Source: Candidatus Krumholzibacteriia bacterium
GTDB lineage: Bacteria > Krumholzibacteriota > Krumholzibacteriia > LZORAL124-64-63
Direction of reading: 5' to 3'
Assembly: GCA_023270185.1 (NCBI GenBank)
Contig: JAGLCY010000290.1
Location: forward strand, 1 to 33,440
Length of the DNA stretch: 33,440 nt
Of this stretch, positions 342 to 6,490 are shown one piece after another. The notes under the pieces are model-generated. The model saw only the letters and a program-made list of their open reading frames with translations, made no database searches and was not told the DNA's origin. How positions within the stretch are numbered: position 1 is the first letter of the stretch; each line of letters starts with the position of its first letter. The translations under genes were made by a program, and so were the position numbers.

Positions 342-935
342 ATGCCTAAGATCCAGACCGTGCGTTTCGGGGAACTCGAATACAAGGGCGAGGACGTTGT
401 CCATCTGCCGGAGGGCCTCGTGGGTATGCCCGATCTCCGCAACTGGCTGGTCCTTGAAATGGGCGATGATCTCCCCATGAAATGGTTCCAGTCCCTGGAC
501 AGGGGCGATTTTGGTTTTCCTGTCAGCCAGCCGGCCTTTTTCGCCGACACCTACGATATTTCCATCCCGGCTTCCTCGGAATCACTCCTGAAAGGAAGAC
601 AAGGGGAATGGTTGGCGATTCTCATTATCACCACAGTTCATGCCGGTGGAACCCGAATAACTGGTAACCTGTTGGCGCCGTTAGTGATAAACGTTGACAC
701 CCGTCTTGGCGTACAAATGGTCCAGGATAACCCGGACTGGGGTGTGCAGCAGGAAATGAATTACTTGAAATTTGGGCTTGCCGTAGATGGTCAGCCAATG
801 GAGAATGAACCAGTGATCGATGAAGGACGGGATCTCGTTGAGGCTTTTACTCAGGAAGTTCTTGATTCCCCGTCCGAAAGTGATCAGTCTGAGGTCCGAC
901 CCGAGGTGGAAACGCCCGAACCCGCTGGGGTCTAG
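342..935 (+). CDS. fliW: Flagellar assembly factor FliW, with an acidic C-terminal extension
   Basis: FliW binds cytoplasmic flagellin and, when released by flagellin export, binds CsrA and relieves its repression of flagellin translation. The first ~145 residues look like the whole family domain: a [22 protein letters not shown] start, then a D-R-G-D-F-G-F-P-V block, [25 protein letters not shown] and a TRLGVQMV segment. The remaining ~50 residues are unusual: rich in Glu, Asp, Pro and Ser, with no obvious fold. The ATG at 342 is preceded by AAGGAG at a good distance. An in-frame GTG-like start at 300 would add 14 residues unlike the family, so I reject it. Total 197 residues, longer than the usual ~130-150. 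csrA follows after 53 bp, so the two are probably co-transcribed, perhaps with flgL. Confidence 0.93.
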
Positions 936-988
936 CCCATACCCGGTTTTCGCCGTGCGGCATTCCGGAGACAGGACAGGGAGGTCCC

Positions 989-1264
989 GTGCTCATACTC
1001 AGCCGAAAGCGCAATGAAAAGATCATGATCGGAGATGACATCTCCATCATGATTGTGGACATCCGTGGTGACCAGGTCCAGATAGGCATTGACGCCCCGC
1101 GTTCCATTCCTGTTCACAGACATGAGATATACGAGGAAATAAAAAACTCGATCATGAACGCCGCTGAATCCGAGAAAGTGGACATGGATGGTATCCGAAA
1201 GAAAATCAATAAAGATGGTGATGGTAAAGATCAGGTCAAGGGTAGGGGAGAAGGCAGTGGTTGA
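989..1264 (+). CDS. csrA: RNA-binding translational regulator CsrA
   Basis: CsrA is a small homodimeric RNA-binding protein that recognises GGA in hairpin loops near ribosome binding sites. The sequence starts [18 protein letters not shown] and has the second signature [20 protein letters not shown]. The conserved Arg falls at residue 44, as in known CsrA proteins, and Arg6 is also present. The start is GTG, preceded by AGGGAGG. At 91 residues it is longer than the usual 60-75; the extra ~30 C-terminal residues are charged and glycine-rich. In the Bacillus-type system the C-terminal extension is where FliW acts. The likely target is the flagellin leader at 4753-4871. The stop codon touches the convergent gene at 1265 with no spacer and no terminator hairpin. 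Confidence 0.95.
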
Positions 1265-3924: not shown

Positions 3925-4752
3925 TTAGCTTACGAGCAAGCTCAACGCCAGGCCGGGGACCAGATTGGCCTGGGATAACATGGAAATCCCCGCCTGCTGC
4001 AGGATCTGATATGACGTCATCTTGGAGGTCTCGTAGGCGACATCCACGTCACGGATCCGGCTGTTGGCGGCCGACAGGTTTTCCGCGGTCATGCTGATGT
4101 TCCTGATGGTGGATTCCAGCCGGTTCTGCACAGCGCCCCAGCCCGCTCTGGCACGGACCACGTTCTGGATGGCCACGTCGATTTCACCCATGGCATTCTG
4201 GGCTTCTGCCACGGTGAGGACGGAGTTGACGATCCCCAGGTCGCTGGCGGTGTGGGATTGGCTCAGGTCAACGGCGATTCGGTCATCAGGAAGGTTGGTT
4301 ATTCCGACCTGAATTCCAACGATTCCGCCGGAACCGTCCAGCATCTTGACCCCGTTGAAGTCGGTCGTGGCCGCGATTCGATCCATTTCTTCCACCAGAG
4401 CGCTGTATTCCAGGTCAAGGTACTCCCGTTCGGAATCACCCAGCGTACCGTTGAGCGACTGCTGTGCGAGTTCCTTCATCCTCTGCAGGATATTGGAGAC
4501 CTCGTCCATGGCGCCTTCGGCGGTCTGGAGCATGCTGATGCCGTCCGAAGCGTTTCGGCTGGCCTGGTTCAGGGCTCGGATGTCGGCCTTCAGGCTTTCG
4601 CTGATGGCCAGACCGGCCGCGTCGTCCCCGGCCCTGGTGATGCGCAGTCCTGAACTGAGTTTCTCCATGGACTTGGCAAAGGCCTGCGTGGCATTCAGCA
4701 GATGCCGCTGTGTGTTGATGGAAGCGATGTTGGTGTTGATGCGGATTCCCAT
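3925..4752 (-). CDS. fliC: Flagellin (short, D0-D1 type)
   Basis: The filament subunit. The N-terminus MGIRINTNIASINTQRHL and the C-terminal helix with R-I-R-D-V-D-V-A-Y-E-T-S-K and Q-A-G-I-S-M-L-S-Q-A-N are standard flagellin. At 275 residues it has the conserved D0 and D1 helices and only a short linker (V-K-M-L-D-G-S-G-G-I-V), so the variable D2/D3 domains are absent. The segment LQRMKELAQQSLNGT is the D1 helix that in other flagellins meets TLR5. The ATG at 4752 has a perfect AAGGAGG seven bases upstream at 4760-4766; longer readings upstream cross the leader and promoter. It is first in the minus-strand filament operon. Regulation is likely by sigma-28 and by CsrA/FliW acting on the leader. 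Confidence 0.97.
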   Translation of the reverse strand: MGIRINTNIASINTQRHLLNATQAFAKSMEKLSSGLRITRAGDDAAGLAISESLKADIRALNQASRNASDGISMLQTAEGAMDEVSNILQRMKELAQQSLNGTLGDSEREYLDLEYSALVEEMDRIAATTDFNGVKMLDGSGGIVGIQVGITNLPDDRIAVDLSQSHTASDLGIVNSVLTVAEAQNAMGEIDVAIQNVVRARAGWGAVQNRLESTIRNISMTAENLSAANSRIRDVDVAYETSKMTSYQILQQAGISMLSQANLVPGLALSLLVS

Positions 4753-4871
4753 GTGCTTTCCTCCTTGAAAACCATGTGGGTACCGGTAGGACCGGTTGGG
4801 ATGTTCGGGGCCGTTTTGGCCCGTATTGGGGAAAAGCGTTTCCATCCTGGATCGGCATTTTCCCTGTCTCC
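4753..4871 (-). promoter_or_regulatory. Flagellin mRNA leader with GGA motifs, candidate CsrA target
   Basis: If transcription starts near 4871, the leader is about 119 nt and holds six GGA trinucleotides in three pairs. These are GGAGACAGGGA at 4861-4871 (with ACAGGGA matching the CsrA consensus ACANGGA), TCCAGGATGGA at 4841-4851, and TCAAGGAGGAA around 4757-4768, which is the ribosome binding site itself. Between the last two pairs lie two small hairpins: GGGCC-GGCCC (4808-4822) and ACCGGT-N3-ACCGGT (4782-4796). A GGA pair on the ribosome binding site plus upstream pairs is the arrangement of known CsrA-repressed leaders. fliW and csrA lie 3.5-4 kb away in the same cluster. Confidence 0.6.
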
Positions 4872-4877
4872 CATTCA

Positions 4878-4905
4878 TCATCGTCCTTGTTTGGTTAAAA
4901 CTTGA
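4878..4905 (-). promoter_or_regulatory. Sigma-28-like promoter for flagellin
   Basis: Read on the minus strand: TCAAGTTT, 12-nt spacer, GACGATGA. Against the sigma-28 consensus TAAAGTTT-N11-GCCGATAA this matches 7/8 and 6/8, with a spacer one base longer. The same geometry (TCAAGTTC-N12-GCCGATCC) occurs before flgM at 5994-6021, which supports both. The start would fall about 119 bases before the flagellin ATG. Confidence 0.55.
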
Positions 4906-6070: not shown

Positions 6071-6124
6071 ATCATGAAAAATACCGAAACTGGAAAAGAC
6101 GCGGCCTTCAGAGGTAGGCTTGTC

Positions 6125-6490
6125 ATGGTCATGGACAAAATCAATGGTTTCACAAACCTGGGCAAAGGGCTCCTGGAACGGTTCCAGGGTTCCGGCCGCA
6201 CTGATTACAAGACCGATGAACAACGCTTGAAAATTAATACGACCGGCAGCGACCGTGGGTCGGTTCGAGGGGACACGGCTGAAATTTCTCCCAAAGCCCA
6301 TCGCCTCATCGCTTTGCGGCACGCCATCGATTCAGGGCACAAGGCCCTTGAGGAACTTCCTGAAGTACGTCAGGACAGGATGGATCAGGTTCGCGCCCGC
6401 CTCAGCAAGGGTTATTATAATTCCGTTGAAGTTCGAACCCTGGTTATCGAACGACTCGAAGAAGTCGCCCGCAAAATGGAGGATCTCTGA
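6125..6490 (+). CDS. flgM: Anti-sigma-28 factor FlgM
   Basis: FlgM binds sigma-28 (FliA) until the hook is complete, then is secreted, freeing sigma-28 for flagellin transcription. The C-terminal half has the family pattern: DTAEISPKAHRLIALRHAI, a linker, then VRQDRMDQVRARLSKGYYN, where R-V/R-x-x-x-x-G-x-Y is the recognisable core, and a final helix. I chose ATG 6125 (121 residues) because GAGGTAGG lies just upstream at 6111-6118 and because the sigma-54-like site would start RNA downstream of the other candidate, ATG 6074, which has no ribosome binding site. The N-terminal ~40 residues are polar and probably disordered, as in the family. The gene is monocistronic: a terminator-like hairpin follows. 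Confidence 0.85.
   Translation: MVMDKINGFTNLGKGLLERFQGSGRTDYKTDEQRLKINTTGSDRGSVRGDTAEISPKAHRLIALRHAIDSGHKALEELPEVRQDRMDQVRARLSKGYYNSVEVRTLVIERLEEVARKMEDL

Follow-up and report, generated by a model that had tools for sequence, protein, structure and literature searches.

Predicted CsrA-type hairpins at the flagellin and csrA ribosome-binding sites of an uncultured Krumholzibacteriota bacterium

The flagellar gene cluster and the flagellin leader

The window (the whole stretch of 33,440 nt analysed here) is contig 213 within a 3.2 Mb assembly of an uncultured bacterium of the Krumholzibacteriota. A cluster of fliW (342-935), csrA (989-1264), fliS, fliD, a FlaG-like gene and one flagellin gene (3925-4752, minus strand) was found there, with fliW and csrA orthologues both present and adjacent. 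The gene neighbours (FliW, CsrA, FliS, FliD, flagellin) agree with the original prediction, with Pfam matches for FliW (2.2e-26) and CsrA (3.2e-25); FliW also matched the solved FliW structure 5DMB (E 3.6e-13). The flagellin is 93% identical to its counterpart in the nearest named genus mate, Candidatus Krumholzibacteriia isolate CSMAG_424, and a csrA-adjacent fliW is retained in most flagellated relatives. The features of the locus are as follows.

342..935, plus strand: fliW, 197 aa, ending 53 nt 5' of csrA
974..987, plus strand: hairpin over the csrA Shine-Dalgarno sequence (SD), GGAC[AGGGAG]GUCC, predicted CsrA autorepression site
989..1264, plus strand: csrA, 91 aa, residue 55 Ile, not Asn
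3925..4752, minus strand: flagellin, 275 aa, sole copy in the assembly, codon 2 GGA
4753..4871, minus strand: predicted 5' leader of the flagellin mRNA, 119 nt, from sequence and promoter position
4755..4772, minus strand: hairpin over the flagellin ribosome-binding site (RBS), GUUUUC[AAGGAG]GAAAGC, with the SD in the loop; fits (A/U)CANGGANG(U/A)
4782..4796, minus strand: spacer hairpin ACCGGU-CCU-ACCGGU, without GGA, from the fold and genus comparison
4808..4822, minus strand: spacer hairpin GGGCC-AAAAC-GGCCC, loop without GGA, from the fold and genus comparison
4829..4864, minus strand: 5' hairpin with the tip UCC[AGGAU]GGA (4851-4841), probable weaker upstream CsrA site (predicted)
4878..4905, minus strand: sigma-28-like promoter TCAA-N16-GACGATGA, expected transcription start at about 4871 (inferred)

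The predicted leader length of 119 nt is supported by the sigma-28-like promoter at 4905-4878, from which transcription would begin near 4871. Relatives share the promoter position: the genus mates carry TCAA-N16-GCCGATGA and TCAA-N16-GACGATAA there, and 41 of 91 family leaders reach a sigma-28 score of at least 10, against 1.6 in base-shuffled leaders. Close to the flagellin gene, positions 6074-6490 encode a weakly FlgM-like protein (E 2.9e-4, under the curated cut-off), possibly an anti-sigma-28 factor. Among relatives, a single genome may hold as many as nine flagellin-like genes, and most of the leaders have a predicted site of their own. Tandem flagellin arrays occur in some of them (L086, L100, L129 and others, up to nine matches per genome), and downstream flagellin copies without a clear sigma-28 promoter frequently carry a hairpin near -38.

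The six GGA motifs on which the original prediction was built are present on the minus strand of 4753-4871, at -119, -111, -95, -91, -12 and -9; they form three pairs, of which the third falls on the SD, and codon 2 of flagellin adds a seventh GGA. Their number was rejected as evidence, because six or more occur in 5% (minus) and 12% (plus) of the 119-nt stretches of the window, an ordinary density for this sequence. The leader with the first codons folds into four hairpins at about -47 kcal/mol and is strongly structured (z = -3.0), and this layout is common to both genus mates, in which the stem sequences differ yet pair. Between pair 2 and pair 3 there are indeed two hairpins without GGA, in line with the original prediction. 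The expectation that the GGA lie in loops held for -95 and for -12 on the SD, which are exposed, while the other four (the first pair and the second members of pairs 2 and 3) are mostly base-paired by pairing probability. The first pair was discarded as a CsrA site, being base-paired and not conserved within the genus, and the ACAGGGA motif, put forward for its fit to the CsrA consensus, failed on the same two counts. An Rfam scan of the window gave no family match.

Hairpins at the ribosome-binding sites and upstream

The flagellin and csrA mRNAs both carry, by sequence and predicted fold, their RBS inside a CsrA-type hairpin. On flagellin, the AAGGAG hexaloop over the SD matches the high-affinity CsrA/RsmE site; this hairpin, absent from the original prediction, is the best predicted CsrA site of the leader. 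Of 92 flagellin leaders drawn from the family of the window and one sister family, all but one (91) place CANGGA at the RBS. An RBS stem of at least 4 bp is present on 60/97 flagellin and 28/35 csrA genes and is rare on their neighbours (fliW 0/31, fliD 0/33, fliS 1/34). Stems of at least 5 bp are formed by 43% of the leaders with their own arms against 18% when arms are swapped between leaders (0/5000 permutations, a procedure that takes no account of relatedness among leaders). The count of covariation in a fixed register gave a weak signal (61% paired, 58% in shuffles; 22/500), owing at least in part to the pooling of hexaloop with pentaloop registers, and one group of flagellin paralogues has little or no RBS stem.

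It should be noted that another, divergent family of flagellins (about 42-46% identity) also has GGA in an SD loop, for example ACAA[AAGGA]UUGU or ACA[AAGGAY]UGU; the regions concerned, upstream of such flagellin-like genes, are L123, L102, L131, L085, L074 and L093. The RBS of fliW (320-341 in the window, and in relatives) often reads ACAAGGAGC, a CANGGA without a stem (22/31), which could be a weak CsrA site.

Further upstream (-130 to -20), an ANGGAN hexaloop on a stem of at least 4 bp was found in 46 of 91 leaders, compared with 1.05 in dinucleotide shuffles, 1 in the reverse complement and 3/90 in the region beyond; the background in 1.2 Mb of one relative was 0.05-0.07 sites per kb per strand. 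These hairpins cluster at -35 to -45 and near -95 and have unrelated stem sequences that are still paired. Among the unique upstream hexaloops carried by stems of 6 bp or more, half are ANGGAN, a pattern matched by 1.2% of the hexamers in that region. Comparison of the leaders of relatives, on which the original prediction could have fallen, showed the RBS and upstream ANGGAN hairpins to be kept, at frequencies well beyond those in shuffles, in the genomic background and at neighbouring genes.

The hairpin at 4829-4864 of the window sits where relatives have ANGGAN hairpins, and its -95 GGA is unpaired with a probability of 0.99. The tip is UCC[AGGAU]GGA here and GUUCC[AGGAU]GGAAU and UCC[AGGAA]GGA in the genus mates; the outer stems around it vary in sequence, yet are paired in each of the three species. 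Taken alone, the tip of the window is no more stable than shuffles, and its loop AGGAU is without the N of ANGGAN. RsmE binds an ANGGAX hexaloop placed directly on a stem with high affinity, and omission of the N weakens the site (PMC4005645). Since the RsmE structures favour ANGGAX, the leader of the window is predicted to have one strong site, on the SD, and one weaker site.

The csrA SD hairpin is kept, with 3 bp or more in its stem, by each of the 35 csrA genes that belong to families f1 and f5, and its outer pairs covary in f5 (CGAC..GUCG, ACGAC..GUCGU). Families f3 and f7 lack it, and f4 has a short form. In the csrA leader of the window an alternative fold, GGG[AGGU]CCC, competes with it. 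The preservation of this hairpin in every f1/f5 csrA gene suggests that CsrA limits its own synthesis through it. In some other phyla (L298, L301) 4-bp versions were observed, TGCC[AAGGAG]GGCA and GGCC[AAGGAG]GGCT, with CsrA Asn55 retained; because of them, csrA autorepression may be widespread. A literature search turned up no FliW-bearing species with reported csrA autorepression.

CsrA residue 55 and the role of FliW

CsrA of the window is longer than usual, as had been supposed (91 aa against 61 in E. coli and 75 in C. jejuni (PMC7829508)), and C-terminal extensions beyond the E. coli length are found in the family, whose members have 78-96 aa. The original prediction missed both the csrA SD hairpin and the replacement of CsrA Asn55. 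FliW binding depends on this residue in B. subtilis and C. jejuni, and the residue was invariant in all FliW-bearing species examined in that study (PMC7829508). The window has Ile at this position and its genus mates have Met and Thr, with Thr elsewhere in f1/f5, except in G021, which has Asn. Altogether, 34 of the 35 f1/f5 csrA genes, including that of the window, are without Asn55, Thr or Met standing in 33 of the 34 others, and Asn55 is kept in f3, f4, f7 and the other phyla sampled. FliW antagonism is therefore changed or uncertain, since Asn55 is replaced in nearly the whole clade. For the proposal that the FliW-CsrA-flagellin circuit operates here, this means that the RNA half is strongly supported by comparison and the FliW half is less certain.

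We suggest, as the probable reading of these comparisons, that CsrA represses flagellin and itself and that FliW still antagonises it through a contact other than Asn55. A less likely explanation is that CsrA represses both genes while FliW acts as a flagellin chaperone only, the antagonism having gone, so that autorepression and titration by flagellin leaders set CsrA activity. Besides the clade-wide change to Thr, Ile or Met, the abolition of complex formation by the C. jejuni N55A substitution (PMC7829508) and the fliW-csrA gap, 43-83 nt in f1 against 8-14 nt in f3/f7, speak for such a loss. However, fliW stays beside csrA in almost all flagellated relatives, and the C. jejuni N55A protein still bound at about 93 nM (PMC7829508). 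In addition, FliW carries clade-specific changes, such as E/D to R at position 54 in f1, which fit compensation for residue 55 and may merely mark the clade. The FliW tree is unrooted, and its row L099, wrongly extracted, is to be disregarded.

Readings in which CsrA plays no part are far weaker. That the hairpins simply stabilise the leader or tune SD accessibility would agree with its strong structure and with the GGA-less spacer hairpins, likewise kept in the genus. But the loop is held to ANGGAN and not just to any loop, the SD is exposed in it and not buried, and the same loop recurs on csrA yet not on fliW, fliD or fliS, which makes this explanation very improbable. Chance can practically be set aside: although GGA density is ordinary, AAGGAG is a normal SD and stemless CANGGA is common at fliW RBSs too, loops of this kind on a stem hardly occur at neighbouring genes and are rare across the genome, and the upstream sites stand about 45-fold above shuffles.

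Comparison with known systems and the proposed circuit

The RNA end of the system resembles B. subtilis hag and C. jejuni flaA, judging from its predicted structure, and represents a variant of the known circuit. In C. jejuni flaA, a two-hairpin layout with GGA as codon 2 was proven by footprint and mutation (PMC4894983). The window shares with it two ANGGA-type stem-loops, the second on the RBS, the GGA codon 2, a sigma-28 promoter and compensatory stem changes in relatives (PMC4894983). It differs in its leader of 119 nt instead of 45 nt, the two GGA-less spacer hairpins, the upstream loop without N, the several flagellin genes of relatives and residue 55 of CsrA. As in the hag-FliW-CsrA system of B. 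subtilis, the leader has two CsrA sites (here predicted, the upstream one as the weaker), one of them on the SD, and fliW and csrA are adjacent (PMC7652899, PMC6529632). In B. subtilis, csrA is translationally coupled to fliW (PMC6529632), unlike in the window, where 53 nt lie between them, csrA has an SD hairpin of its own and Asn55 is replaced.

A CsrA-type site overlapping the csrA SD is also known from the autoregulation of E. coli csrA (PMC7652899), with four sites in place of one hairpin; here FliW is present, and no CsrB-like RNA was seen in the parts searched. Specifically, no CsrB/RsmZ-type RNA (at least three ANGGAN hairpins in 250 nt) was found in 1.2 Mb of the relative G014 and 197 kb of the organism's own genome. 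In the same 1.2 Mb of G014, a search for further CsrA targets by RBS hairpin returned mostly doubtful ORFs and no clear set. The ANGGAX hexaloop directly on a stem is shared with the hcnA RBS bound by Pseudomonas RsmE and with the RsmZ stem-loops (PMC4005645), though on another gene, in another phylum and, here, as a prediction.

From the conservation, specificity and pairing of the hairpins, the gene order and the change at residue 55, all of them observed, we infer the following scheme of CsrA binding, repression, autorepression and FliW action. CsrA probably represses flagellin and csrA, because the hairpin is conserved across the family. A CsrA dimer on the flagellin SD hairpin, aided by the upstream site, would block ribosome binding and so lower flagellin synthesis. 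On the matching hairpin over its own SD, CsrA would limit its own production. FliW, when it has no flagellin bound, would probably still free the mRNA of CsrA via a contact other than Asn55. Because the Asn55 signature is lost, membership in a FliW-antagonised circuit is not claimed as proven. More tentatively, the circuit in f1/f5 may have been rewired as a whole, with Asn55 lost, csrA uncoupled from fliW and the SD hairpin type shared by both mRNAs; autorepression would then set the CsrA level, and FliW would act by a new contact or by none.

A literature search found no description of such a CsrA-flagellin switch in Krumholzibacteriota. The comparative RNA evidence extends probable CsrA control of flagellin to this uncultured phylum and exposes a break in the rule that CsrA Asn55 is the FliW contact. 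The csrA hairpin could stand in for the translational coupling by which FliW and CsrA are balanced in Bacillus, and the lineages with and without Asn55 provide a matched set for the evolution of FliW-CsrA recognition.
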